A stretch of 13,769 nt of DNA from Bacteroidota bacterium. GTDB lineage: Bacteria; Bacteroidota; Bacteroidia; Chitinophagales; Saprospiraceae. Location: positions 1-13,769 of the forward strand of contig JAJRQS010000356.1 of assembly GCA_024280135.1 (NCBI GenBank), in the 5' to 3' direction. A program made the translations under genes and the position numbers. Numbering within the stretch: the first letter of the stretch is position 1; every line of letters starts with the position of its first letter. This document shows, one piece after another, positions 1-13,769 of the stretch. The notes below the pieces were generated by a model. That model searched no databases. It had not been told where the DNA came from and saw only the letters and a list, made by a program, of their open reading frames with translations.

Positions 1-729
1 AAACTGATAACCCATTACACTCGTGAGGCAGGCGTACGTGCATTGCGTCAAAAGATTGCAGGTGTGATGAGACACGTAGCGAAGGAGGTTGCTATGAATG
101 GAGTTAAGTCTGTAGCCATTACACCGGACATGTTAGGGACTATTTTAGGGCCAGAGCCTTTCTCCAAAGAACTCTATAATGAAAAATTACCAGCAGGAGT
201 AGCCGTTGGTTTGGCATGGACAAGCGTTGGGGGAGAGATATTGTTTATTGAAGCCTCTCAAAATCCAGGAGGTGGCAAGTTGACGCTTACAGGAAACTTA
301 GGCACCGTAATGAAGGAATCGGCTACCACCGCTTTATCTTTCATCAAAGCACATGCGAAGTCGTTAAAGATTGACGCTAAGTTATTTCAAGAAACGGATT
401 TACACATTCATGTTCCAGCTGGAGCGATCCCCAAGGATGGTCCTTCAGCAGGTATCACCATGATGACAGCCATCACTTCTTCGCTTTTGGGCAAGCCTGT
501 CAAAAGGCATCTAGCGATGACAGGAGAGATTACCTTGCGGGGAAAAGTGTTGCCAGTGGGAGGAATTAAAGAAAAGATGTTGGCGGCAAAGCGTGCCAAT
601 ATGAAAGAGATTATTCTTTGCAAAGCCAATGAAAAGCATGTCGATGAAATTGATCCCGCTTATTTGAAAGGTTTGAAATTTCATTATGTAGAACGGATGG
701 AAGAAGTCTTAAAAATTGCTTTGAAATAA
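1..729 (+). CDS. lon: ATP-dependent Lon protease, C-terminal part (5' end outside window)
   Basis: This is the end of the cytoplasmic ATP-dependent serine protease Lon, which degrades misfolded and regulatory proteins. The frame is open from base 1 ([20 protein letters not shown]), so the gene is cut by the window edge rather than starting inside it. About 242 residues remain: the end of the AAA+ small domain and the whole proteolytic domain. The Ser-Lys catalytic dyad is visible. The serine lies in PKDGPSAG (codon 445-447), and the lysine in the GGIKEK motif following GKVLPVGG (codon 568-570). The ending, [14 protein letters not shown], is typical of bacterial Lon, so the C-terminus is complete. 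No clear intrinsic terminator follows the stop. The family assignment is secure; only the N-terminal and ATPase parts cannot be judged. Confidence 0.97.
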
Positions 730-876
730 CGTATGTTACCAAAGTCAATGGATATATAAAGATCGCTTTGAGTAAATACCGATAAAATGAGGCTTCTTGG
801 TCTTGGTCAAAGATTGATATTCATAAACGTCAGGTTAATACTTAAAACCAATGGAATATAAATTATTATGCTCCGT

Positions 877-909
877 TATGGGATAGCTTGCGCAAAAAGC
901 TTACTTTTG
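877..909 (+). promoter_or_regulatory. candidate Bacteroidota-type promoter for the gene at 941
   Basis: TACTTTTG at 902-909 fits the Bacteroidota -7 element TAnnTTTG. A weak -33 match, TATG, lies at 877-880 with a 21-base spacer. The predicted start near 915-917 would give a leader of about 25 bases. The -7 match is good but the -33 is poor, and the -7 lies inside the right arm of an inverted repeat. Confidence 0.4.
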
Positions 910-917
910 GGCAAGCT
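885..917 (+). promoter_or_regulatory. 33-base inverted repeat over the -7 element of the gene at 941
   Basis: AGCTTGC (885-891) pairs with GCAAGCT (911-917). After one G-G mismatch, CAAAA (893-897) pairs with TTTTG (905-909), leaving a seven-base loop. No T-run follows, so it is a poor candidate for the lon terminator. It could be an operator or an RNA hairpin just upstream of the start codon. The repeat is seen directly; the role is inference. Confidence 0.45.
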
Positions 918-940
918 CCCTAATTGAGAAAAATAATTAC

Positions 941-1588
941 ATGAAGTACATTCTTGCATTTGTAGCTTTGTTTAGTGTGTCACTAGGACAAGCTCAGACC
1001 GTAACGCCAGATGCTATCCAATTTTCAGGGTTAGTCGTAACAGGCGATGAAGACCACATCTTACCCGTTGCGTATGCCACTATTGCCGTTAAAGGCACCT
1101 CCAGAGGAACTTACGCAAATTACGCTGGGTTTTATTCTTTAGTAGTCCGACCGAATGAAGTCCTTATCTTTACCGCAATCGGTTTCGAGAATGTAGAATA
1201 TACCGTCCCAGATACGATTATCGGTAATAAGTTCAATTACGTTCAGAACATGAAAGAAGAAGATGTTCTACTACCAGAAGCAGTAGTTTACCCTTGGCCT
1301 AGTAATAAATACTTGAAGCAAGAATTTTTGGCAATGGATGTAAGTAATGATCTAGATGTTCGAATTCAAGAGAACTTAATGCAAGAAACCCTTGCAAATT
1401 TACGAGTAGCTTTAGTTCGAGATGCGCATGAAAATGCCAGTTTTGCCCTAAGGCAAGAGACCGATAAGTTTTATTACCATGGTCAGCTTCCGCCAAATTA
1501 TATGTCCATCTTCAATGCCAACGCTTGGATCAAGTTTTTCCAAGCTATCAAAAACGGAGACTTTAAGGACAAAAGGAAAAAGAAATGA
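941..1588 (+). CDS. secreted carboxypeptidase-regulatory-like domain protein
   Basis: A 215-residue protein with a clear Sec signal peptide (MKYILAFVALFSVSLGQAQ, residues 1-19), so it is exported to the periplasm or outer membrane. Residues about 27-95 resemble the carboxypeptidase-regulatory-like beta-sandwich that is common in Bacteroidota. The signs are FSGLVV, a proline-containing VAYATIAVKGTSRGTYANYAGFY segment and VLIFTAIGFENVEY. The same fold begins SusC-type receptors, but there is no plug or barrel here. The second half (LPEAVVYPWPSNKYLKQEF onward) is mostly helical and ends in a very basic tail, DKRKKK. The ATG at 941 directly precedes the signal peptide. The gene stands alone and converges on a minus-strand gene across a terminator. 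I can assign the domain and location but no specific function. Confidence 0.8.
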   Translation: MKYILAFVALFSVSLGQAQTVTPDAIQFSGLVVTGDEDHILPVAYATIAVKGTSRGTYANYAGFYSLVVRPNEVLIFTAIGFENVEYTVPDTIIGNKFNYVQNMKEEDVLLPEAVVYPWPSNKYLKQEFLAMDVSNDLDVRIQENLMQETLANLRVALVRDAHENASFALRQETDKFYYHGQLPPNYMSIFNANAWIKFFQAIKNGDFKDKRKKK

Positions 1589-1612
1589 TCACTACAAATG
1601 ACGTAGAGCCAT

Positions 1613-1649
1613 AAAAAAGCCCCTCATTTGACATGAAGGGCTTTTTTTT
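1613..1649. terminator. bidirectional intrinsic terminator between converging genes
   Basis: AAAAAAGCCC pairs with GGGCTTTTTT. The hairpin extends inward past one C-A mismatch with TCAT/ATGA around a five-base loop. A T-run flanks the stem on both strands, so it can end transcription from both the gene at 941 and the gene at 1668-2138. Confidence 0.88.
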
Positions 1650-1667
1650 GAAGAATTAATGGAACAA

Positions 1668-2138
1668 TTATCCTAAAGGAATCTTAATCTCTTGTCCAGG
1701 AAAAATCTTGTTTGGATTGTCTAATATGTCCTTATTCGCTTCAAAAATCTCCTTATAACGCATAGCATCTCCATAATAATGCTTCGCTATTCTAGAAAGA
1801 GAATCCCCTTTCTTTATCGTATAAGTTTCAAACTTAGGAGCGGGGATATTGACTTCCAATCTGTCATTTACGCTGAATACACCGTCAACTCGATTAACAG
1901 CATTGACGATTGCTAAACGATCCGCTTCTGATGTTACAACACCCGATACCGTTGCGGTATTATTAAAGAAGTCAACACTTAAATTGCTAACATTTAAGCC
2001 TAATGCCGCTACCGTATTCTCCAGAACCATCAATTTCGAATTACGGATCATTTCATCCGCATTTGCATTTACATTTGGTTTTGGTGCAGCTGGTGTAGCT
2101 GGCTTACTTTTCTTTTTCAGGAAGTCAAATAGTCCCAT
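1668..2138 (-). CDS. kbp: Kbp/YgaU-like BON and LysM domain protein
   Basis: A 156-residue protein with the architecture of E. coli Kbp (YgaU), a small potassium-binding protein of about 149 residues. It starts MGLFDFLKKK, followed by an Ala/Pro linker (residues 11-27). A BON domain spans roughly 40-98 (LNVSNLSVDFFNNTATVSGVV, then VFSVNDRLEV). A LysM domain spans 104-154 (YTIKKGDSLSRIAKHYYGD, then IFEANKDILDNPNKIFPGQ). The frame stays open to an ATG at 2198, but the ATG at 2138 is chosen because it gives the family's usual MGLF(D/N)F start. There is no signal peptide, as in Kbp, so it is probably cytoplasmic despite the LysM. K+ binding is inferred from the family only. Confidence 0.87.
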   Translation of the reverse strand: MGLFDFLKKKSKPATPAAPKPNVNANADEMIRNSKLMVLENTVAALGLNVSNLSVDFFNNTATVSGVVTSEADRLAIVNAVNRVDGVFSVNDRLEVNIPAPKFETYTIKKGDSLSRIAKHYYGDAMRYKEIFEANKDILDNPNKIFPGQEIKIPLG

Positions 2139-2208
2139 TTTTTTAGTTTTAGGTGAAAGAAGAAAATGGGTTGACGTAAAAAATACGATTCTCCCCAATT
2201 ACTAGCAG

Positions 2209-2216
2209 CAAATATA
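2209..2216 (-). promoter_or_regulatory. candidate -7 element for the kbp-like gene
   Basis: On the minus strand TATATTTG fits TAnnTTTG, about 70 bases upstream of the ATG at 2138. I see no convincing TTTG at the -33 spacing, so this is only a half match. Confidence 0.35.
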
Positions 2217-2381
2217 GTTGTTTTTATTATTTTTATCACGCATTAAACGTTGATTTTGTGTTTTTTACCGCTCAAATGAGATTAATTTGTGTTATTCTTG
2301 GGTGAAATTTTGAGGTAGGGGGCTAGGTATCAAAAGTTGGGAAGCCCAAAACCGTCTAATCTGTAAAACTAGTGCAACATT

Positions 2382-2414
2382 TTTGGGATAAGTTCGGTAA
2401 AACTACTATATTTG
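2382..2414 (+). promoter_or_regulatory. Bacteroidota-type promoter of secDF
   Basis: TTTG (2382-2385), a 21-base spacer and TATATTTG (2407-2414) match the TTTG-N19..21-TAnnTTTG consensus of the primary Bacteroidota sigma factor. The inferred transcription start near 2421 gives a long leader of about 190 bases. Confidence 0.7.
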
Positions 2415-2612
2415 CGCTACTTTTGAGAAAGTGTACCGCACATTTTTATTATTAGCCAAATTTTGGCAACAGAATGGAATGGTTGGTCAGCACATTTTAG
2501 CCTTATTTTAATAGACTTTCATTTGAGCTTTTGAACAGCTCTTTAATTAAGTATGAAAATCTGATACTTCATTTTGGCAATGACTGACGTTCCCACAAAA
2601 AGTTTTAAACGA
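2415..2612 (+). other. secDF 5' leader within the divergent kbp-secDF intergenic region
   Basis: The gene-free stretch 2139-2612 holds two divergent promoter candidates and this leader. Within the leader are two overlapping tiny reading frames, at 2474-2500 (8 codons plus stop) and 2479-2511 (10 codons plus stop). A small hairpin GAGCT/AGCTC lies near 2525-2541. I recognise no riboswitch or known arrest peptide. Confidence 0.3.
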
Positions 2613-5600
2613 ATGCAAACTAAAGGATTGTTCAAAGTACTATTGATTTTACTAACCGTTGTGTGCTTATATCAATATCTACTTATTTTCCCATCTAAGA
2701 AAGTTGAGAATAAAGCGCATGTATTTGCCACAGAAGCAAGTGCAAGCCTCACAGATGCGCATGAGAAAGAGGGAGCTTATAAAGCTGCTAGAAGTCAATT
2801 TTTAGATTCTGCTTCTACTGAAGTAGCATTTAGAATTCCGCTATTAAAAAGTTTTACCTACAATGAGTTAAAAGCTCAACAATTAAAACTAGGTTTGGAC
2901 TTGAAAGGGGGGATGAGTGCAATTCTGCAAGTTGATTTAGGTAACTTTTTACTTGAGTTGTCTGAAGAAAATTTAGATAACCCAAATCCTGGATTTAAGA
3001 AAGCAATAGATGAAGCTCAAGTGGCAATGGCAAATGGAGGAGATTTCATCACGGCCTTTGGTTCAGCATACAAGAAACATTCGACAGGATTAAGTCTCGC
3101 AGATATTTTTAGTAGAAATGACCTTTTTAAAGAGGACATTAACTTCAAATCTACAGATGCTCAAGTGCTTGAGCTACTTAGAGCTAAATCGAAAGAAACA
3201 GTCAAGCAGACTTTTAGTCACTTAGGTAAACGGATTGATAAGTTAGGAGTGGTACAACCCAATATCTCTTTGGACGAAAGTCGTAACTTAATTATTGTAG
3301 AATTACCGGGTGTAGAAAATCCGGAGACCTTCCGGAAATATGTCCAAACTACTGCAAAGTTAGAATTTTGGAATACTTACCGTATTAGTGATCCGGGTCT
3401 TGTTCAAGCGTTTAGTGCAGCAGATGCAAAACTAAAAGAGTTATCAGGAACGGTTACAACCGCCACTCAAGATACGGTGTTTGAAATGGAATACACTTAT
3501 GACGACTTAGGGAATATTAAGGATTCTACTAGAGTGGCAAAAGTTAATCCAGCTCAACAACAGGGTGGACCATTGTTTAAAAACTTAAGATTACAAGTCT
3601 TTCAAGATGGAGTTCCAGACTCACCAGTCATGGGGTATGCCAATAAAAATCAAAGAGAACATATCTTAGATATGCTTAATAAGCCAGAAGTGAAGAGTCT
3701 CTTTCCGCAAGATATTAGATTTCTTTGGGGACAATCTTCTTTAGAAGTTAAGGGGGAAAACATTGGCTTTCCGCTTTATGCCATTCAAGTACCCCCTAAC
3801 GGAAAAGCGCCTCTTGAAGGGGATCACATTACTAGAGCAGGCGTTACAACAGACCCAACGACTAGTGAAGTGATGGTTTCTCTTGCCATGGATAATGAGG
3901 GATCAAGAGTTTGGGGCGAAATGACCCAAGCAGCATTTAATGCAGGTAAAAGAGAAATTGGGATTACACTTGATAATATGGTTGTTTCTTCGCCAAGCGT
4001 CCGTAATGGAGCGATATTAGGTGGGAATACTCAAATCTCGGGTAACTTCACTATCACAGAAGCAAAGGAATTGGCTAATATCCTTGAAGTGGGTAAATTG
4101 CCAGCAAAGGTAAATATCATTGAAGAACAATTAATTGGGCCTTCTCTTGGAGCAGATAACATTGCTAAAAGTTTTAACTCAGTAGCATTAGCCTTTATTT
4201 TATTGCTATTGTTTATGGTGGCGTATTATGCTTTTGGAGGTATAGTGTCCGTAGTTGCATTAATAGCGAACTTGTTCTTTATTTTTGGTGCTTTAGCATC
4301 TTATGGTACGGTATTAACAATGCCAGGGATTGCCGGTATTATCCTTACTTTGGGTATGGCGGTAGATGCAAACGTTATTATCTATGAACGAATACGAGAA
4401 GAACTGAGAGCAGGAAAAGATATTAAAACTGCTATTAAAGATGGTTTTAAGCATTCATATTCAGCGATTATCGATGCTAACGTTACCTCTTTATTGACGG
4501 CAATGGTTTTATCATACTTCGGCTTAGGGCCCATTAAAGGTTTTGCAGTCGTATTGATTATTGGTATCTTAAGCTCACTTTTGACAGCTCTAGTTTTAAC
4601 AAAATTGATAATAGACTGGAGAGTAGAAAAAGGAAAAACGCCTTCGTTTAGTTATGGTTGGTCCGCTGATATCTTAACGAAAACCAATATTGATTGGATC
4701 GGTATCCGCAAATATGGATATATCATTTCATCGGTAGTCATTCTAATTGGAGCGGCCTTGTTCGTAACCAAAGGTTTTGATTTAGGAGTTGATTTTACAG
4801 GTGGATATTCATACAATGTTAAGTTTGATAATGCAGTTCAAGTAGATGCTGATGTGATTCGTACTCAATTGAAAAATCAATTTGAAACGGAGCCAACAGT
4901 AAAGGTCGTTAGTACAAATAACACCTTTAATATTGTCACTAAGTACATGATTAATAGCACAGATACTAGTGCCGTCACGATTGTTACAGACAAGCTTTAC
5001 GAAGGGATTAATGCAATAGCAGGAGGTTCTTTAAATAAAGCTTCATTTAATGATGTGAGTTCAACTGGAACGAAGATTATTAGTTCTAGTAAGGTCGGCC
5101 CAACCATTGCAGATGATATTCGAGCAAGTTCATACAAATCGGCGATTGTTGCTTTGATTTTCATTTTCTTATACTTGTTTATTCGCTTCCGCAAATGGCA
5201 ATTTAGTATGGGAGCAGTTATTGCACTATTTCATGATGTATTGGCGACCTTGAGTATGTTTTTGATATTCCAGCATGTGATGCCTTTTTCTATGGAAATA
5301 AACCAAGCATTTGTTGCGGCGATTTTAACGGTAATCGGTTACTCCGTAAATGACACGGTTGTAGTATATGACCGTATCAGAGAGTTTATTGCTGCCGGTC
5401 ATGGTACAACCAAAAAGGAAGTATTTAATTTTGCGATTAACCGAACATTGAGTAGAACATTGATTACCTCTGTTACGACCTTGATAGTAATTTTAATCCT
5501 ATTGGTTTTTGGTGGGGACAGCATTAAAGGTTTTGCATTTGCAATCATGTGGGGGATTATTTTTGGTACTTATTCTTCTATTTTCATTGCGTCAGCATCT

Positions 5601-5705
5601 GTATATGATTTGACGAAAGGATGGAATCCAATGGATAAAACAGCCGTGCAGACTACCTACGAAAAGAAAGGAGCTAAAAAACCTAAAAAGGCACCCGCAA
5701 AATAA
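2613..5705 (+). CDS. secDF: SecDF protein-export membrane protein (SecD-SecF fusion)
   Basis: This protein uses the proton-motive force to help SecYEG move proteins across the inner membrane. It is a single-chain SecD-SecF fusion of 1030 residues, the usual form in Bacteroidota. The first membrane helix is at about 5-27, followed by the SecD motif LGLDLKGG (93-100) and a large periplasmic domain. The SecD helices follow from about 520, with MAVDANVIIYERIREEL (582-598). The SecF half begins near 700, with LGVDFTGG (724-731) and GYSVNDTVVVYDRIREF (909-925). The two membrane aspartates that match the proton-pathway residues of other SecDF proteins are D585 and D914. The C-terminus is a lysine-rich tail (KKGAKKPKKAPAK). 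ATG 2613 gives MQTKGLFKVLL, the usual family start; ATG 2580 and TTG 2574 are in frame and possible. It has its own promoter and terminator, so it is probably monocistronic. Confidence 0.96.
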   Translation: MQTKGLFKVLLILLTVVCLYQYLLIFPSKKVENKAHVFATEASASLTDAHEKEGAYKAARSQFLDSASTEVAFRIPLLKSFTYNELKAQQLKLGLDLKGGMSAILQVDLGNFLLELSEENLDNPNPGFKKAIDEAQVAMANGGDFITAFGSAYKKHSTGLSLADIFSRNDLFKEDINFKSTDAQVLELLRAKSKETVKQTFSHLGKRIDKLGVVQPNISLDESRNLIIVELPGVENPETFRKYVQTTAKLEFWNTYRISDPGLVQAFSAADAKLKELSGTVTTATQDTVFEMEYTYDDLGNIKDSTRVAKVNPAQQQGGPLFKNLRLQVFQDGVPDSPVMGYANKNQREHILDMLNKPEVKSLFPQDIRFLWGQSSLEVKGENIGFPLYAIQVPPNGKAPLEGDHITRAGVTTDPTTSEVMVSLAMDNEGSRVWGEMTQAAFNAGKREIGITLDNMVVSSPSVRNGAILGGNTQISGNFTITEAKELANILEVGKLPAKVNIIEEQLIGPSLGADNIAKSFNSVALAFILLLLFMVAYYAFGGIVSVVALIANLFFIFGALASYGTVLTMPGIAGIILTLGMAVDANVIIYERIREELRAGKDIKTAIKDGFKHSYSAIIDANVTSLLTAMVLSYFGLGPIKGFAVVLIIGILSSLLTALVLTKLIIDWRVEKGKTPSFSYGWSADILTKTNIDWIGIRKYGYIISSVVILIGAALFVTKGFDLGVDFTGGYSYNVKFDNAVQVDADVIRTQLKNQFETEPTVKVVSTNNTFNIVTKYMINSTDTSAVTIVTDKLYEGINAIAGGSLNKASFNDVSSTGTKIISSSKVGPTIADDIRASSYKSAIVALIFIFLYLFIRFRKWQFSMGAVIALFHDVLATLSMFLIFQHVMPFSMEINQAFVAAILTVIGYSVNDTVVVYDRIREFIAAGHGTTKKEVFNFAINRTLSRTLITSVTTLIVILILLVFGGDSIKGFAFAIMWGIIFGTYSSIFIASASVYDLTKGWNPMDKTAVQTTYEKKGAKKPKKAPAK

Positions 5706-5725
5706 AGTCTAATATTTCTGGACTT

Positions 5726-5760
5726 AAAAGCGACTCAATTTATTTTGGGTCGCTTTTTTT
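5726..5760 (+). terminator. intrinsic terminator after secDF
   Basis: AAAAGCGAC (5726-5734) pairs with GTCGCTTTT (5749-5757). The stem extends inward through TCAA/TTGG with one G-T pair, and the T-run continues to 5760. Confidence 0.9.
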
Positions 5761-5854
5761 ATTGGGATAACTATAATATCGTTCGCTGAAGTCCAGCCGT
5801 ATTTGTACGCAAGTACCCTTAAAGTCTAATTTGCCTTGATTATAGGAACATTCT

Positions 5855-5886
5855 TTTGTCTAATAAGTAAAAAACACTTACCTTTG
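5855..5886 (+). promoter_or_regulatory. strong Bacteroidota-type promoter of rpsA
   Basis: TTTG (5855-5858), a 20-base spacer and TACCTTTG (5879-5886) match TTTG-N20-TAnnTTTG in every fixed position. The start of transcription would be near 5893, giving a leader of about 80 bases. Confidence 0.8.
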
Positions 5887-5899
5887 CACCGCTTTAACG

Positions 5900-5966
5900 G
5901 AATAGTGTGAATATACAAGATTTCTTGAATTTTGCTATTCTATTTATTTAACCATTTAAAAGAGGA
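5900..5966 (+). promoter_or_regulatory. rpsA leader: nested hairpin and Shine-Dalgarno-like site
   Basis: GAATAG (5900-5905) can pair with CTATTC (5935-5940), enclosing a second hairpin CAAG-ATTT-CTTG (5916-5927). AGAGGA (5961-5966) lies eight bases before the ATG at 5975, an acceptable Shine-Dalgarno distance in a phylum that seldom uses such sites. E. coli S1 represses its own translation; whether this leader serves the same purpose is inference. Confidence 0.4.
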
Positions 5967-5974
5967 TTCTTTCA

Positions 5975-8479
5975 ATGCTCGAAGAAGAAAAAAACACAGA
6001 CAATCAAGACGATACAAACAAAGAAGTATCAGCCAATCTTGAAACAACATCCGCTACTGAAGAAACAGTAAGTAGTGTCGATGAAAATGCAGTCGTTACG
6101 ACTGTAGAAGAAGTTACTGCCGCACCTGTAAATACTGAAATTTCAGTAGAAGAGGCCGCAGCGCTTAAGGAACAAAGAGAAACAGAAACGACTAAAACCT
6201 TAGAAACCTTAATAGAGGACAATTCTAAGTTTTTGGAAACCGCCCATGACGATTTTGATTGGGACGGAAAAGAATCTGATTTATCTGAATATTCAGAAAC
6301 AGAACTAAAGTCTTTGACTACTGAATATGAAAACTATATTGTAGCCCTTGCAGAAAGCCAAATTGTAGATGGTAAAGTAAAGGAGATTAATGGTAGAGAC
6401 GTAATCATTGATTTTGATTACAAAGCTGATGGTATCCTATCTATCTCTGAATTTAGAGATATGCCGGATCTTAAGGTTGGGGATCTAGTTCCCGTATATG
6501 TAGAAAGCCTTGAAGACAAAAGAGGTCAACTATCTCTTTCTAGAAGAAAAGCCAAAATCTTAAAAGCTTGGGATAGCTTGGTAGATTCATATGAAACAGG
6601 TGCAATTGTAAACGGTACGGTAGTTAGTAAAACTAAAGGTGGTTTGATTGTGGACTGTAGTGGTCTAGAAACATTCTTACCAGGTTCTCAAATTGACATC
6701 AGACCTATCGTTGATTATGATGCATACGTGGGTAAGACAATGGAATTTAGAGTAGTTAAGATTAATGAAGCAATCAAAAACGCTGTTGTATCGCACAAAG
6801 CACTTATTGAAAGTGACCTTGCGGAACAAAGAGATAAGATCGTAGCGACACTAGAAAGAGGACAAGTACTAGAAGGTGTGGTCAAGAACATCACCGATTT
6901 CGGTGCATTTATGGACTTAGGAGGTGTTGACGGTTTACTTTATATCACAGATATTTCTTGGGGTAGAATTAAGCACCCAAGTGAAGTGCTAGAGTTGAAT
7001 CAGAAGTTGAATGTTGTTGTATTAGACTTCAATGAAGACAAGAAGCGAATCTCTCTAAGTTTGAAGCAATTACTACCACATCCATGGGAGGTGTTAGATG
7101 AAAAAATTGTCGAAGGTTCTACGATCAAAGGTAAAGTAGTGAATATTGAAGACTACGGTGCTTTCTTGGAAGTAATTCCTGGCGTAGAAGGATTGGTTCA
7201 CGTAAGTGAAGTAACTTGGAGCAACCAACCGGTTAATGCTAAGGAATACTTTACATTAGGTGAGTCTTACGATGCTAAGGTCGTAACAGTTGATAGAGAA
7301 GATAAGAAGATGTCCTTGAGCATCAAGCAATTATCTGAAGATCCTTGGAACACAATAGAAAATAAATTTGCAACGGGTACGAAGCATACAGGAGTGGTGA
7401 AGAATTTAACTCCTTATGGTGTATTTGTTGAGTTAGATGAAGGTATTGGCGGAATGATTCACATTTCAGACCTTAGTTGGTTGAAGCGTTTCTCACACCC
7501 ATCTGAATTTACGAAAGTAGGTCAAGATATTGATATCCAAATCTTGGAAATTGATAAAGCGAATAGAAAGCTTTCTCTAGGGCATAAGCAATTAGAAGAA
7601 AACCCATGGGATACATTTGAGAATGTATTCCCAGTTGGCTCTTTCCATGAAGGTACTTTGGTTAGAAAAGATGAAAAAGGAGCAATCGTTCAATTGCAAT
7701 ATGGATTGGAAGCATTCGCACCACTAAAGCATGTTAAAAAAGAGAATGGTAGCATGGCTGAAGTGAATGATGTATTGACTTTCAAAGTACTAGAATTCAA
7801 TAGAGACGATAAGCGTATTTTGATTTCTCATACTAGATACTTAGATGCAATCAAACGGGAAGCTGGTGAGATAGTTGAAAACGAAAAACGGGAAGAGAAA
7901 GCAACGACTCGTAAGTTTGTGAAAAAACAAGCCGCTAGTAATGAAGTCACTACTTTGGGCGAAATTGCAGGTTTTGGAGATTTGAAAAAGCAATTAGAGG
8001 CTGAAGCCAAGAAAGCAGAACCTGTAGTCAAGAAGGTAGAAGCTGAAGTGAAGAAAGTGGAACCTGTCGTAAAGAAGGTAGAAGCTGAAGTGAAAAAAGC
8101 AGAACCTGTTGTAAAGAAGGTAGAAGCTGTGAAGAAAGTGGAACCTGTTGTCACTCGTGTCGAATCTACAGAAGAGTCAAAACCTGCTGTAGTTAGAAGA
8201 GTGGTCAGAAGGGTAGAGGAAGCCACTGCAGCTGATGATTTGAAGAAGATTGAAGGCATTGGGCCGAAGATTGAAGAAGTCATCAATAAAGCAGGAGTCA
8301 CGACTTACAAGCAGTTATCAGAAACGAAGCCTGAGACCATTAAGGAATGGTTAAAAGAAGCAGGTGGAAGATTTGCTGCGCACAACCCAGGTACTTGGCC
8401 TAAGCAAGCAGAAATGGCTGCAGAAGGTAAATGGGATGAACTCAAGAAGTGGCAAGATGAGTTAGATGGTGGTAAGTAA
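5975..8479 (+). CDS. rpsA: 30S ribosomal protein S1 with extended C-terminal HhH tail
   Basis: S1 binds mRNA on the small ribosomal subunit and helps initiation. The protein has 834 residues, well above the usual 550-620. After an acidic N-terminal stretch (1-100) there are six S1/OB repeats, at about 124-192, 208-275, 296-365, 382-451, 469-538 and 556-620. Repeats 3-5 show the classic pattern (GVVKNITDFGAFMDLGGVDG, then YITDISW, KHPSE and KKRISLSLKQL). A charged linker follows (625-675), then four 13-14 residue repeats built on AEVKKVEPVVKKVE (676-730). A helix-hairpin-helix module closes the protein (753-831: DDLKKIEGIGPKIEEVINKAG, then RFAAHNPGTWPKQAEMAAEG). Similar HhH tails occur on other Bacteroidota proteins, including, as I recall, some ribosomal proteins; the role of this one is unknown. 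The gene has its own promoter and terminator. Confidence 0.96.
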   Translation: MLEEEKNTDNQDDTNKEVSANLETTSATEETVSSVDENAVVTTVEEVTAAPVNTEISVEEAAALKEQRETETTKTLETLIEDNSKFLETAHDDFDWDGKESDLSEYSETELKSLTTEYENYIVALAESQIVDGKVKEINGRDVIIDFDYKADGILSISEFRDMPDLKVGDLVPVYVESLEDKRGQLSLSRRKAKILKAWDSLVDSYETGAIVNGTVVSKTKGGLIVDCSGLETFLPGSQIDIRPIVDYDAYVGKTMEFRVVKINEAIKNAVVSHKALIESDLAEQRDKIVATLERGQVLEGVVKNITDFGAFMDLGGVDGLLYITDISWGRIKHPSEVLELNQKLNVVVLDFNEDKKRISLSLKQLLPHPWEVLDEKIVEGSTIKGKVVNIEDYGAFLEVIPGVEGLVHVSEVTWSNQPVNAKEYFTLGESYDAKVVTVDREDKKMSLSIKQLSEDPWNTIENKFATGTKHTGVVKNLTPYGVFVELDEGIGGMIHISDLSWLKRFSHPSEFTKVGQDIDIQILEIDKANRKLSLGHKQLEENPWDTFENVFPVGSFHEGTLVRKDEKGAIVQLQYGLEAFAPLKHVKKENGSMAEVNDVLTFKVLEFNRDDKRILISHTRYLDAIKREAGEIVENEKREEKATTRKFVKKQAASNEVTTLGEIAGFGDLKKQLEAEAKKAEPVVKKVEAEVKKVEPVVKKVEAEVKKAEPVVKKVEAVKKVEPVVTRVESTEESKPAVVRRVVRRVEEATAADDLKKIEGIGPKIEEVINKAGVTTYKQLSETKPETIKEWLKEAGGRFAAHNPGTWPKQAEMAAEGKWDELKKWQDELDGGK
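8000..8164 (+). repeat. four tandem 42-base coding repeats in the rpsA tail
   Basis: The units are AEAKKAEPVVKKVE, AEVKKVEPVVKKVE, AEVKKAEPVVKKVE and AVKKVEPVVTRVE (S1 residues 676-730). The first three are 42 bases long and the last is 39. They differ by a few synonymous and Ala/Val changes, and alternate copies resemble each other most. The array encodes a charged, probably helical or flexible spacer between the S1 domains and the HhH module. Any gain or loss of a unit stays in frame. Confidence 0.9.
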
Positions 8480-8505
8480 GCCATTAATTTAGTGCTAAAA
8501 TATTA

Positions 8506-8539
8506 TGGGGTCAAAGCGAAAGCTTTGACCCCATTTTTT
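8506..8539 (+). terminator. intrinsic terminator after rpsA
   Basis: A perfect 12-base-pair stem, TGGGGTCAAAGC (8506-8517) with GCTTTGACCCCA (8522-8533), is closed by a GAAA tetraloop and followed by six T. Confidence 0.95.
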
Positions 8540-8904
8540 GGATGTACACAGTTTCCTAATTTCTTTAATGGCTTCTTCTATATTAATATTTACATGGTCC
8601 GGTGCCGTATCATGCATGGTCCCTTTTGACTTTTGTCCATGGTTTCTTGGGGCTATCGAACTAACCTATTAGTAGGAAAAAGGAATTGGCAATAAGAAAA
8701 GTTGAAGATGAATTTGACCGCTGTCAGCTGGATATAATGGAGCAAGCTATTCACAAAATTTCGAATACAGTTATTAGAGAATTGAATTATTTGTTTTCTA
8801 ACATGGATTGAGTATTTTGAATAAAACTTTGTCTTTTGTTTGGTATGTCAGGATTTTAGGTTTATATTGTGATTACTCTCCGTAATAGTTTAAATAGTTT
8901 ATTT
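8540..8904. other. intergenic stretch without a supportable gene
   Basis: Between the rpsA terminator and the surface operon I see only short frames: 41 codons from a TTG at 8686 to 8811 on the plus strand, and 40 codons from 8617 to 8495 on the minus strand. Neither has a family signature, and the minus-strand frame runs through the rpsA terminator. The right end contains a candidate promoter for the operon. The region could include remnants of lost genes, but nothing shows it. Confidence 0.5.
8839..8869 (+). promoter_or_regulatory. candidate promoter of the surface operon
   Basis: TTTG (8839-8842), a 20-base spacer and TATATTG (8863-8869) approximate TTTG-N20-TAnnTTTG, with one T missing from the -7 element. 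The predicted transcript would start about 30 bases before the ATG at 8905. Confidence 0.35.
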
Positions 8905-11734
8905 ATGTTCAAGTCAAGTCAAGTCAAGTCAAGTCAATATTCTTCTTTTAGTATTTGTTCTTCTTCCATCCTTCCTTTTTGCGCAAAAAAGCAGTTTTGA
9001 TATTGTTACTGGGAAGACAAGTAAGCAATCTTCGGTAGAAAACGGGAAGACAGCAAATTTAGCAAATGATGGTATTAATGCTACTTTTAGTAGGACTTAT
9101 TCAGAGCATAATCCATGGTGGGAGGTTGATTTAGGAGGATATTTCAAATTAAGTTCGATCGAAATAAATATACCTAAAAACTTAGGGGCAGGAAATTTCA
9201 ATGTTTATATCTCCGAAACACCATTTGTAGATAATGAAGGTATTCCTAAACAAAGTGAAACTACTGATGTAGTAGAAATTACACCCAATACTAAATTTAC
9301 TTTTAAAGAATACGGAAGATTTTTTAAATCTGGGAGGTACCTACGTATTTCAAAACCTGGATATAGTGTATTGGTAATTAGTGACGTTACGATATTTGGA
9401 ACTTGGAGCGAACATTGTGGTAACGGAAAGGATGACGATGGTGATGGTGATACTGACTGTGAAGATTCCGATTGCGTTGGAAATATATTTAACGTTAACG
9501 TCGTTAAAGAACCTACATGTAATATTTGTGACGACGGTATAATTTCTGTTCAAATGTTTGGATTATTAAATAACGGTGAGATAAGTTTTGATAATGGAGT
9601 TTCATTTATTCCTATGAATCAGTCATTTATGGAGTTTGATGGGTTTCTTCCTGGAGATTATGATATCATTGCCAGAAATCGGTGGTATGGATGCTTGTCT
9701 TCTTGGAAGGGGAATTCTGTTACTTTAGCTGCACCTGTTGGACAACCACTAGGTTCATGTGAAAATGGTGATATAGAAAGTGGAGATTTTTCTGGATGGG
9801 TTTGTTCTACAAGTTCTTGGACTAAAGATCCTAATGAGCCAAATTATAATTTTCCTATTTCACCTTTTATAGATCCCTTTGTTGAGGGTATAGTAGATAA
9901 TAGACATAGGGTAGTGAGTAGTGGTATTGATCCCTATGCACCATTAATTCATTTCCCATTTTCTGGTAGTTATAGTTTATTATTAGGCAACTCTAACACT
10001 GGTTTTGAAATTGATAGGATAGCGTATAAGTTTATTGTGGACTCGAAAAATAAAGACTTTACATTTAATTACGCTTTAGTGCTACAGGATCCAGAAGGTC
10101 ATATTTCTGATGATGGTGTTGATGCAAGACCATTTTTTGAATATTCTTTTTATTATATAGAGAATGGTGCTAAAGTTCAAATTCCTAATGGAACCTTTAA
10201 AGTAGTATCTGACGCGAATGATCCATATTGGTCTATAGGAAATGATGTTGTTTATAAAGGATGGTCTTGCGAAACTATTGATTTGTCCTCCTATATTGGA
10301 AAGGAAATAACATTAGAGTTTACTGTAGCAGATTGTGGGTTGAGAGATCATTTTGGTTATGCTTATATTGATGGGTTGTGCGTGTCACCTGAAGATAATA
10401 AACCCGTTCCTAGCTTGGAGCTAAATGAAATTGTTTGTGACAATCAAGAAGTATTTGCAGACGCGACTAAAAGCTTTAGCTTTAACAAGTACGAGATAGA
10501 AGTCTGTAGAATTGATGGTGGAAATGAAGTAGAGTGTAAAAAACAGATTACTTTTGCTAGCTTTATTCCAGTAATAAATGTAGGGGATTTTTTGGAAGCT
10601 AATTCTTCCGAACTTGTTTGTGAAAATATGTATATTGTAAAACTTACACTGTATAATGACTGCTCTGAATCAGTAGGAATTGCAAGGCAATTTAAATATG
10701 TGTGTGGAGGTAGTACAATATCATATCCTGATTTTGTCAATTGCACATTGAGCAACAACCCTAGCATTGATGTGAAAATTCCTTCAGACAATGATTGTTT
10801 GAATTGTACTTTTAGTTGGGAACCTGCAGGTTATTTAGATGATGCAACTCTTGAAGAACCAACGATCCAAGGTACTTTGATTACAAATGCGGTGGGTCGA
10901 GAATATTCGGTTGTGGCTACAAATAGTTTGGGATGCGAATACGAAGATAAACTAACTGTTTTTAATTTGCCTGAAATTGTATTTATTTCGCCCAAGGAAG
11001 TCGTTGAATGCGATAAAAACCTTGATCTTAGAGTTAAGATAGTTTTTGATCGTTGGATTGATAATCCAGAAAATATAATAAACATAAGTTTTTATGATTT
11101 AAAAGGGAATAAAAACGTAGAGGGTCAAAGAGTTTCAAGTTCTCCAGACCGTAGAACTTTTACCTATAAATTAATGTTGGACGCTAGTGTGGAACAATCA
11201 TTGGAAGTAACAGTAAATTGGAACCAAAGTTTTGTTGATGCTAATGTGCATATTGGTAATAACTGTTCTGTTAAAAGAGAAATAGATTTAGAATCTCTTC
11301 CAGCAACTTGGACTTATTCAGATTTAGAATTGTTTTATAAAGATACTTACGATGACTATTACGATGTTTCGGATGAAAATGGAAAGATTCAAGTAGAAAA
11401 TATTTTTAATCCTACGCTAAATGTTCCGAAATTTCCCGCAGTAAGGACTTTCGAACCATTTTCGCTACATTCAGGAGTTACATGGGCAAAGCTATCAATT
11501 TGGGAGGAAGTGGGAGGTCTACTTTTTCAAAAAGAAGTTGAATATACAGAGCAAAAAGCTGCAGGTTTGTTAGTAAATGGTCAGCTAAACCTAATGGAAT
11601 TAGCATGGGATGGCTCTTACAATGGATATAATGCAGAGATAGGTGTTTATGTTTGGGTTCTAGAGCTAAGAAATTGCCAGTTTCCAGAGGGACAGGAGAA
11701 GATTTTTTCTGGAGATGTAACTTTGATTAAATAA
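8905..11734 (+). CDS. phase-variable secreted multidomain surface protein, out of frame at this repeat count
   Basis: The coding frame is open from 8894 to the stop at 11734, but its first possible start codon is a TTG at 9371, inside a domain. The only fitting ATG (8905) is in another frame and stops at 9000. One additional AAGTC unit would join them into 944 residues. These begin MFKSSQVKSSQV followed by the hydrophobic core ILLLVFVLLPSFLFAQ, a textbook Sec signal peptide. In that numbering, residues about 35-170 form an F5/8-type C (discoidin-like, sugar-binding) domain with KTSKQSS, NLANDGI, PWWEVDLG and NVYISETPF. CGNGKDDDGDGDTDCEDSDC (173-192) is an Asp-rich, probably Ca-binding, module. 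About 287-497 is a jelly-roll module (NGDIESGDFSGW, SLLLGNSNTGFE, LQDPEGH, HFGYAYIDGLCV). Cysteine-rich Ig-like segments follow. The last 85 residues (AWDGSYNGYNAEIGVYVWVLE, then SGDVTLIK) resemble the T9SS type B sorting domain. It is probably an adhesin or sugar-binding surface protein. An assembly error in the repeat is the alternative to true phase variation. Confidence 0.85.
8909..8937 (+). repeat. AAGTC pentanucleotide tandem repeat (putative phase-variation tract)
   Basis: Five perfect AAGTC units (8911-8935), flanked by TC and AA that continue the pattern, give 29 bases of period five without interruption. The tract sits two codons after the ATG at 8905 and directly before the signal-peptide core. 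Five is not a multiple of three, so each gain or loss of a unit changes the reading frame. With three or six units the ORF is in frame. With five, as here, translation stops at 8998-9000; with four it stops at a TAG just after the tract. In frame it encodes KSSQV repeats. Confidence 0.95.
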
Positions 11735-11739
11735 AAAAA

Positions 11740-12519
11740 ATGAAAAATTCTTACTTTTATTTCTTTGCTGTTTGTTTATGCTTACTTGGTTGTAAAGAAG
11801 AAATAAAAACAAGATCGACGCTTGATTATTGCTTACCAGCAAACCTGCAAAATGGTGTTATTGCTTTTTATCCGTTTACAACAGGAAGGTATAGGGATGA
11901 ATCAGGAAATCAAAATAACCTTTTAGAGAATTCGTTTGTTTTAGGTGATGTTGGAAGGGGAGGTATTGAAGATTGTGCTTTTACATTTGATAATAGGTTG
12001 TGGGCGGATGCTTATTTAAAAGCAGATAATTCCTCTTTCCTTAATGGTAATGCCTCTTTCTCTATATCCTTCTGGTATAAATTTATAGATTCTATTTATT
12101 ATGATAACCAAACCCTTGTAAGAAGAGGAAATGTTGATTATAATTGTATACCGAGAACTGGGGAATGGTCTGTAGGTATTACAGATGGAAGAGCAATCTA
12201 TTTTGCTCATGACAATAGGGTTACTGGATTCCACGCATCGCCAGTTCCTGAGGATTATTACGCCTATTCTTCAACTCACTGGATGCATTTAGTTGTTGTA
12301 AAGGACAACGAACAGTTTCTTATTTACACAGATGGTTCTTTATCGGATTCAACTAGTGGACTTGCTAACTGCACAGATCCGCACTTAGCTGAAGATGTTG
12401 GCGACTTGTTTATAGGCGAGGGATTTAATGGTAGTATGGATGACGTTATTTTTTATAATAGAGCCATTCCGGCAGACCAAGTATGGGATTTGTTTAATGT
12501 TTCACCCTGTTGCAGATAA
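11740..12519 (+). CDS. LamG-like lipoprotein, probably surface exposed
   Basis: A 259-residue lipoprotein. MKNSYFYFFAVCLCLLGC is a lipoprotein signal with the lipobox LLGC and cysteine at residue 18. The mature start C-K-E-E fits the K-(D/E)2 lipoprotein export signal described in Bacteroidota, suggesting transfer to the outer face of the outer membrane. Residues about 37-255 form a LamG/concanavalin A-like jelly roll. The signs are NGVIAFYPFTTGRYRDESGN, the NASFSISFWYKF strand, HWMHLVVVKDNEQFLIYTDG and the closing GSMDDVIFYNRAIPADQVWDLF, all typical of carbohydrate- or protein-binding LamG-like domains. No catalytic residues are evident. The ATG lies five bases after the stop of the upstream gene, so the two are almost certainly cotranscribed and perhaps translationally coupled. 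The ligand is unknown. Confidence 0.87.
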   Translation: MKNSYFYFFAVCLCLLGCKEEIKTRSTLDYCLPANLQNGVIAFYPFTTGRYRDESGNQNNLLENSFVLGDVGRGGIEDCAFTFDNRLWADAYLKADNSSFLNGNASFSISFWYKFIDSIYYDNQTLVRRGNVDYNCIPRTGEWSVGITDGRAIYFAHDNRVTGFHASPVPEDYYAYSSTHWMHLVVVKDNEQFLIYTDGSLSDSTSGLANCTDPHLAEDVGDLFIGEGFNGSMDDVIFYNRAIPADQVWDLFNVSPCCR

Positions 12520-12530
12520 AACTAAAAAGT

Positions 12531-13208
12531 ATGAAAAAGATTATTTTTGTTTTCTTATTGTTCATTAGTTGTATTGCACACTCTACTGCTCAATCGGAGC
12601 AGCATATTATGATCTCTGGAAATCCATTTTTCTCTAAAAGCTTCCACAACTTGCGTTCGAAGCCTCAGGAAAAAAAGGATTCAATTAGCTACGAATCCAA
12701 AATAGGCTTTACCATAAAAGCCGAGTACCAATTCTATTTGTTTGAACGGGGGCAGCTCTCAATAGGAATAAGTTATTCAAATTGGCGAGCAAAAAGGAAG
12801 AATAACTACCAATGGGGAAACCAACATGATGGGATGGGAGGATTTGCACCTGTGCCTTCACCCGATTTTTTTATAGACAGTTATACCGAATTAGGACTGC
12901 CTATTGCCTTACGTTTGTACACTGAAGGACAGCGGTTAAAGTATTTTGTAAAGGCTGGTATAACGCCAACTATTGGTCAAGTAAAAACGGATGATATATT
13001 TAGTCATGAAGAGATGTTGGTCACAAATGTAAAATGGGACTTTGCTGTGGGGATAGAATATCAATTGTCCGACAGAACAACCGGTTATTTAGCACCAAAT
13101 ATCCACTCATATTTATTGACGGATAAAAATTGGGCTTTTCGTAATGCCTTTATGCGTGCAGGAATCGGTTTGGAGGTGGGGATGCGTATTAGGTTATTTG
13201 AAAATTAG
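12531..13208 (+). CDS. outer-membrane beta-barrel protein
   Basis: A 225-residue protein with a Sec signal peptide (MKKIIFVFLLFISCIAHSTAQ). Alternating strand patterns typical of a small outer-membrane barrel follow, such as IGFTIKAEYQFYLFERGQLSIGISYSNW, ELGLPIALRLYTEG, YFVKAGITPTIGQV and WDFAVGIEYQLSDRTTGYLAP. The last strand is AGIGLEVGMRIRLFEN. The length and pattern fit the 'outer membrane protein beta-barrel' families common in Bacteroidota. An in-frame TTG at 12510 exists, but ATG 12531 directly precedes the signal peptide, 11 bases after the lipoprotein stop. It is the last gene of the three-gene operon and could anchor or export the two other products. That link is inference from position only. 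Confidence 0.82.
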   Translation: MKKIIFVFLLFISCIAHSTAQSEQHIMISGNPFFSKSFHNLRSKPQEKKDSISYESKIGFTIKAEYQFYLFERGQLSIGISYSNWRAKRKNNYQWGNQHDGMGGFAPVPSPDFFIDSYTELGLPIALRLYTEGQRLKYFVKAGITPTIGQVKTDDIFSHEEMLVTNVKWDFAVGIEYQLSDRTTGYLAPNIHSYLLTDKNWAFRNAFMRAGIGLEVGMRIRLFEN

Positions 13209-13633
13209 AATCACTGAGTTTACTCCAAAAACTCATCAATACCGTGCGGAAAGCAGAATTTTGTTCTATGCTTGATTACCCATGGTGGGGTTCTTTAAAA
13301 AATCAACAAAATACATTTTGCGTCAGGCTAGTAATCAGGACGAGTGAATAAATGCTCTACGTTATGAAAGAAAACCCAAATGCTGAATAGTTACCTTTTG
13401 GCAATATTTGCACTTACTCAACTAGCTAATAATACTCAGGCATCACTGTCTCGTAAAATCCAAATCTCATCCAAAATAATTTTATGGGAATTGCCAGTTC
13501 TCAGAGTGGATTCAAAATTCACCTTTCGGTCCTTTTTGGCATATATACCTACAAGAAAGACGTTCAAAACGGGCGGTGCTTAGGGAGAGGAAAAAGCTCT
13601 TCAAAAAATATTTACATTATTTATCAATAAAGC
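13209..13633. other. intergenic stretch before the rRNA operon, no convincing gene
   Basis: TGAGTTT (13215-13221) and AAACTCA (13229-13235) form a weak hairpin just after the barrel gene, without a T-run. A 67-codon frame at 13380-13583 and a 48-codon frame at 13484-13630 overlap in different frames. Neither shows a recognisable domain, and the first uses codons (TCC, CTC, CGG) unlike its neighbours. I see no gene, tRNA or mobile element here. Confidence 0.5.
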
Positions 13634-13664
13634 TTGTGTGGTAAAATAAAAGGTTCTATCTTTG
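13634..13664 (+). promoter_or_regulatory. rRNA operon promoter
   Basis: TTG (13634-13636), a 20-base spacer and TATCTTTG (13657-13664) match the Bacteroidota promoter, and a 16S rRNA gene begins about 90 bases downstream. CTTAGC-GAACGA-GCTAAG (13671-13688) forms a hairpin at the predicted transcript start. Confidence 0.8.
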
Positions 13665-13703
13665 CAATCCCTTAGCGAACGAGCTAAGTGGAACAAGAAA
13701 AAA

Positions 13704-13714
13704 GTTCATTGACA
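13704..13714 (+). promoter_or_regulatory. boxA-like antitermination site in the rRNA leader
   Basis: GTTCATTGACA resembles the E. coli rrn boxA (GCTCTTTAACA) and lies in the usual place between promoter and 16S rRNA, where Nus factors assemble to prevent premature termination. Assigned by similarity and position. Confidence 0.6.
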
Positions 13715-13753
13715 GAGGAAGAAAAAGAAAAGGCCCGAAATAATAATATTTCA

Positions 13754-13769
13754 ACTATGAAGAGTTTGA
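13754..13769 (+). rRNA. rrs: 16S ribosomal RNA, first bases (3' part outside window)
   Basis: The window ends in GAAGAGTTTGA (13759-13769), the universal start of bacterial 16S rRNA (E. coli positions 6-16). Aligning to E. coli puts position 1 near 13754. The upstream promoter and boxA-like site support the call. Only about 16 bases are present, so the exact 5' end is approximate. Confidence 0.85.

Follow-up and report, generated by a model that had tools for sequence, protein, structure and literature searches.

A pentamer repeat between start codon and signal peptide as a probable slipped-strand phase-variation switch, sequenced OFF, in a Saprospiraceae genome

A perfect pentamer tract separates an ATG from the signal peptide of a long exported protein in a draft genome of the family Saprospiraceae, and we think it probable, from the sequence of this locus and of its relatives, that it is a slipped-strand (SSR) phase-variation switch that was captured in the OFF state. 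The locus was found in a contig of a Bacteroidota bacterium (GenBank assembly GCA_024280135.1, contig JAJRQS010000356.1), of which positions 1 to 13,769 of the forward strand, 13,769 nucleotides in all, were analysed and are referred to as the window. The features of the switch locus, of the encoded protein and of the two genes that follow it are listed in Table 1.

Table 1. Features of the candidate switch locus and the genes behind it (positions in the window)
Feature	Positions	Strand	Remarks
ATG start codon	8905..8907	+	wrong frame for long protein as sequenced
Perfect pentamer tract (TCAAG/CAAGT)	8909..8937	+	29 bp, 5.8 units; open in three sense frames
OFF product: 31-codon frame from ATG	8905..9000	+	stop TGA 8998-9000
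Signal-peptide core NILLLVFVLLPSFLFAQ	8936..8986	+	hydropathy; without own start codon
Long open frame, exported protein	8936..11734	+	932 codons and stop TAA 11732-11734
F5/8 type C, galactose-binding-like domain, residues 43-138	9062..9349	+	PF22633 above cut-off
Acidic disulfide repeat, residues 159-183	9410..9484	+	NF033662, below cut-off
Unnamed domain, residues 269-482	9740..10381	+	common to exported proteins of relatives
C-terminal domain, T9SS type B sorting-like, divergent	11471..11731	+	alignment to relatives
LamG-type protein	11740..12519	+	PF13385; 5 bp behind long frame; possibly same operon
Outer-membrane beta-barrel protein	12531..13208	+	PF13505 (query from 12510); possibly same operon

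The maximal period-5 run spans 8909-8937 and includes an error-free CAAGT x5 at 8910-8934; it is a perfect non-triplet SSR that, with its 5.8 units, reaches the cut-off of five units for pentamers used in surveys. An earlier sequence-only reading had placed five pentamer units between the ATG and the long frame, had the ATG read 31 codons to its stop, and had seen no ATG, GTG or TTG in the signal-peptide frame before 9371; all of this was borne out, the last of these positions being a TTG, and the nearest in-frame stop upstream of the long frame is the TAA at 8891. The third frame that leaves the tract ends at a stop at 8949-8951, and since the remaining two frames are thus this one and the 31-codon frame from the ATG, just one of the three repeat-number classes is open, as the frame arithmetic of that reading had it. 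Whether the ATG is in or out of frame with the intact long frame is therefore set by the number of repeats, which is one of the marks of an SSR phase-variable gene, and the number sequenced belongs to a closed class.

The core NILLLVFVLLPSFLFAQ is presumably a typical signal-peptide core. No sense frame of the pentamer unit contains a stop, and the repeat is translated in turn as Q, V, K, S and S, so that a polar, lysine-bearing n-region is expected at any unit number; polar residues and lysine are tolerated in the n-region of signal peptides. There are stop codons in the complement of the unit, so that just one orientation is workable. The ATG is without an A at −3, a base described as a positive determinant of initiation in Flavobacterium (PMC6847099), and the same is true of rpsA and of the gene at 941 in the window. 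A terminator-like hairpin (8505-8534) lies behind rpsA. We also note that a 48-codon stop-to-stop frame, perhaps a gene remnant, lies between rpsA and the switch gene (8665-8811), and that the 9-mer AATAGTTTA occurs twice directly 5′ of the ATG (8884-8901).

In the mechanism that we propose, replication slippage would add or drop pentamer units, and one repeat-number class in three would yield the exported protein (ON). The sequenced allele would be OFF and, since at its repeat number the ATG is out of frame with the signal peptide, no long protein is expected from it. Cells of one population would then differ in their display of the protein, and the two downstream genes could perhaps be co-affected by the switch. 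Five units is the minimum cut-off in phase-variation surveys, and with so low a unit number switching may be rare.

The long-frame protein is a probable T9SS cargo, as far as its C-terminus allows it to be classified. The sequence-only reading had taken T9SS export for granted, and this stood in part: the C-terminus aligns with the T9SS type B sorting domains of six relatives at 32-39% identity with the invariant columns kept, and four of the five scanned relatives with an aligning C-terminus exceed the TIGR04131 cut-off (one is below it), but the window protein itself gives no TIGR04131 match at E-values up to 5 and no PF13585 match, so that the T9SS label is probable and not proven. An Opa beta-barrel was not found in the protein, its domain matches being limited to the F5/8 type C domain and the acidic repeat. 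A search of the PDB gave a single weak match, to FBP32 (E-value 0.002).

Three CAAGT units were matched in none of 200 dinucleotide shuffles of the window. CAAGT x4 occurs in one of 398 family genomes, which is the source genome, and there at the switch locus only; the backward control of the pattern is likewise found in 1/398. Within 41 stretches of the source genome (247,708 of 2,532,008 bp) no other 5-mer SSR reaches four units, and the window gene is the only one of their 147 ORFs with a 5′ SSR, counted here and below as a C or G run of at least 7 or a 4-, 5-, 7- or 8-mer SSR. No ortholog of the gene was seen in four congeners; in three of them the listed matches are confined to the C-terminus, and in the fourth there is a single match (E-value 7.6e-4, place not given). 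Nor was a second copy of the switch gene found among the genomes of named species, in a scan that reaches close relatives only. Carriage by a virus was considered and rejected, since the ATG/tract junction is absent from viral_contigs and the layout is found in none of four viral loci with CAAGT tracts. In three viral contigs (L122, L123 and L125) the same 32-bp CAAGT tract recurs, flanks included, away from a gene start.

The same arrangement is found in homologues in another genus of the family, here called g44. In one of its genomes (G047) a gene consists of an ATG, 13.7 units of the heptamer CAGTCAA and a signal peptide, all in frame; its protein matches residues 269-482 of the window protein (30% identity, E-value 9e-15) and ends in a T9SS type A tail that exceeds the cut-off (TIGR04183). 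The nine g44 genomes contain 25 matches to the G047 protein, of which 14 reach the signal peptide, and the other 11 were dropped. An SSR stands between ATG and signal peptide in 11 of the 14 and is missing from three. The repeats are heptamers (13.7 and 3.9 units), polyC (7, 9, 9, 9, 11, 12 and 22) and polyG (8 and 10), and the SSR-bearing homologues divide into five that are in frame, five that are out of frame behind the ATG and one without an ATG. Near-identical leaders carry tracts of different lengths (one set has C9, C9 and C12, a second has C7 and C11), and the layout is thus shared among these relatives at differing tract lengths.

The background for this comparison was drawn from 20 g44 stretches in four genomes (356,868 bp, ORFs of at least 150 codons), where a 5′ SSR was found in one of 202 ORFs as against 11 of 14 homologues, a difference with a Fisher p of 5e-15 that is to be read with the paralogues being non-independent and the background comprising all genes, not exported genes alone. 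The lone background match (L297; G251:C5, minus strand) has 8.8 units of TTACC just behind the ATG and in frame; the frame has 625 codons, and the repeat supplies part of its hydrophobic leader. Several of the homologues are incomplete or ambiguous in one respect or another. Two of the five in-frame cases (G295:C51 and G388:C4) are truncated by the contig end shortly behind the signal peptide, in G186:C63 the C22 tract is near a contig start with no ATG ahead, and G379:C74 is out of frame from its ATG and has an in-frame TTG at the tract. The second gene of G251:C22 has an internal stop and only 3.9 units, and another g44 homologue is split. Outside g44, matches to the 269-482 domain were listed in 100 relatives, 27 in all, and when the g44 protein itself and three cut by ends are excluded, all 23 uncut homologues are without such an SSR; one has a T9.

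Genes beyond this set of homologues have the layout as well. The g44 genome G388 has two more genes with a heptamer between ATG and hydrophobic leader (5.3 units in one and 8.7 in the other, neither in frame), which are outside the 25 matches, and one of which compares with the G047 protein directly at an E-value of only 0.94. In G326:C10 a G9 tract lies between ATG and signal peptide, in frame, ahead of a protein that is unrelated to the window protein and whose T9SS type A tail falls just short of the cut-off. The source genome has nine places with a C or G run of at least 8, and the layout is found at one of them (G000:C303, L313/L349, tract 4006-4014), where a C9 lies between ATG and signal peptide of a protein (1169 residues scanned) with a T9SS type A tail above cut-off; this is an ambiguous case, since the first ATG is out of frame and a second, in-frame ATG could give the full signal peptide. 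In a congener (G001:C14, L335) a G10 is inside the signal peptide and out of frame from the ATG, and the frame that follows is only 104 codons long. Among the matches listed, C9 places occurred in 14 genomes, and 21 distinct places were read. In G388 one contig (L340, G388:C13) stops at a C16 run that follows an ATG-led frame, which looks like an assembly broken at a variable tract.

SSRs as such are unremarkable in the family, since the backward controls are as common as the real patterns or commoner (CAGTCAA x4 is found in 4/398 family genomes and its backward control in 7/398); it is the position that stands out. Two of the four heptamer-bearing family genomes (G417 and G433) lack the layout, and heptamer SSRs are also found intergenically. 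Seventeen units of ATTAACC in G022 (L174:7714-7833) are apparently intergenic.

The proposal of phase variation made in the sequence-only reading thus gains support, in that exported proteins of the family, both homologous and unrelated, have frame-changing repeats at the same spot, some of them in frame and others out of it. We lean, by a small degree, towards a wider interpretation in which this lineage has a phasome, diverse SSRs having settled repeatedly between the ATG and the signal peptide of T9SS-type cargo, with the window gene as one pentamer member. PolyC, polyG, pentamers and heptamers would be its repeats, and each cell would show a random subset of surface proteins. That relatives have the layout with other repeats suggests that environmental bacteria possess an on/off system which has been little studied.

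An alternative is that the gene is decaying, the tract having slipped once out of frame to leave a young pseudogene and not a reversible switch. This we regard as unlikely. The gene was sequenced out of frame, there are only five units, the start context is weak, and among the g44 homologues there are the SSR-bearing one with an internal stop and the split one mentioned above; but the 932 codons are open and show codon-position bias along the whole frame (G+C of 0.45/0.36/0.22 at the three positions), so that the case against decay that the earlier reading built on the intact frame is upheld, and a perfect repeat at the exact junction of ATG and signal peptide recurs in other genes, of which about half are in frame. 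Less likely again is an error of assembly or consensus, with a true repeat number that is in frame and constant. In its favour, the source is a draft, presumably metagenome-derived genome in 414 contigs that is 79.7% complete. A tract of 29 bp is shorter than common short reads, however, and would normally be spanned by them, and even with such an error a perfect non-triplet tract at this place would still need explaining. It is very improbable that the protein is made regardless, either from a non-standard start at ATT 8939 or through a ribosomal frameshift within the repeat. ATT 8939 is in frame and just ahead of the hydrophobic core but belongs to a rare class of starts and would leave no charged n-region, and ribosomes could not re-initiate at any start codon before 9371. 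Ribosomal frameshifting is named besides slippage in the title of a reference in PMC3960869 on gonococcal P.II genes in E. coli; the predicted folding of the region does not exceed that of shuffled sequences (z +1.1).

Two further candidates were rejected, namely re-initiation after 9000, for which the long frame offers no start codon before 9371, and programmed −1 frameshifting at the A6 run at 8985 (GCA AAA AAG in the ATG frame), since a −1 shift misses the long frame and the signal peptide is upstream of the run. A search for RNA families found none, and the number of sites in a promoter scan was not above that in shuffles.

The slipped-strand switch remains the preferred reading of the window locus, and we asked how tracts of the same pentamer are placed in public genomes. 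A scan of one genome per species gave 66 stretches with at least five CAAGT units. Of 68 CAAGT tracts, 18 lay at locus edges and one was flagged as a duplicate; 50 were used. An upstream ATG within 45 bp that is open through the tract is present in 34 of the 50, where the null has a mean of 22.3 and a maximum of 31 over 400 draws. Long frames behind the tract show no enrichment (16/50 against a null of 13.3), and ATG and long frame together show a modest excess (13/50; null 6.8, maximum 15). The strict layout, an ATG within 20 bp and a frame of at least 150 codons starting near the tract, is found in seven of the 50 (the null averages 1.05 and never exceeds 6 over 2000 draws), by a criterion that was chosen after a first look at the tracts. 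From the nearest ATG, five of the 13 cases are in frame and eight out of frame, and the frames behind them encode a TonB-dependent receptor, four DUF1559 pseudopilin-like proteins, a PEP-CTERM protein, two type I restriction-modification subunits, an M20 peptidase, a PAS/response-regulator protein and three proteins without a family. The other CAAGT tracts are intergenic or inside ORFs, so that the pentamer is not always a switch.

Some of these loci are of interest in themselves. CAAGT tracts are at the frame start of a TonB receptor of Moraxella macacae (L037), of HsdM of Gallibacterium anatis (L077) and of HsdS of Endomicrobiellum (L080). In four Planctomycetaceae MAGs (L041, L067, L092 and L097) tracts of differing lengths are found 5 bp behind the ATG, preceding DUF1559 pseudopilin-like proteins that carry an N-methylation motif. 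Only part of these cases are in frame, and the set is a possible phase-variable family.

The closest working model of the window locus is provided by the neisserial opa genes, which have pentameric CTCTT coding repeats in the leader-peptide region, and with which it shares a translated pentamer repeat in the leader region, at the 5′ end, and a frame set by repeat number (PMC3960869). The window gene is not Opa, however, as it has another repeat unit, no Opa barrel and a long multidomain product with a T9SS-like tail, and belongs to an environmental genome; its switching is also a prediction from sequence. The phasomes described for Campylobacter, Helicobacter, Haemophilus and Moraxella likewise have a non-triplet SSR near the start of surface-protein frames and a five-unit cut-off (PMC6321876, PMC5953494), whereas here the proteins are exported proteins of an environmental family with T9SS-type tails, and the repeat type varies from gene to gene among the relatives. 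Five is described as the lowest number of pentamer units counted as phase-variable in these two surveys, one of which leaves opa loci that have one to four repeats under its cut-off, and the other of which states that tracts at the low end may mutate too rarely for switching (PMC6321876, PMC5953494). Bacteroides, which is probably of the same phylum, has a comparable random on/off expression of surface structures (PMC11868660), but this is described as arising from site-specific DNA inversion, whereas the window locus would be a translational repeat switch.

The accessible text of PMC9862357 and of PMC3796261 reports no repeat switch on T9SS cargo, and in the open-licence literature, among the matches listed, slipped-strand or repeat-tract variation is not paired with T9SS, in agreement with the statement of the sequence-only reading that no such switch had been described. 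As this coverage is of open-licence papers, it is no more than probable that an SSR switch on T9SS-type cargo is novel.

Gene callers drop or shorten genes of this kind in draft genomes, and the locus may serve as a warning in this respect. Most work on repeat-driven phase variation has concerned host-adapted bacteria. If true, a lineage-wide phasome would do by translation what Bacteroides does by DNA inversion, and if repeat switches are found on the exported proteins of environmental Bacteroidota, this would suggest that phages, predators or competition on surfaces select for them outside hosts.
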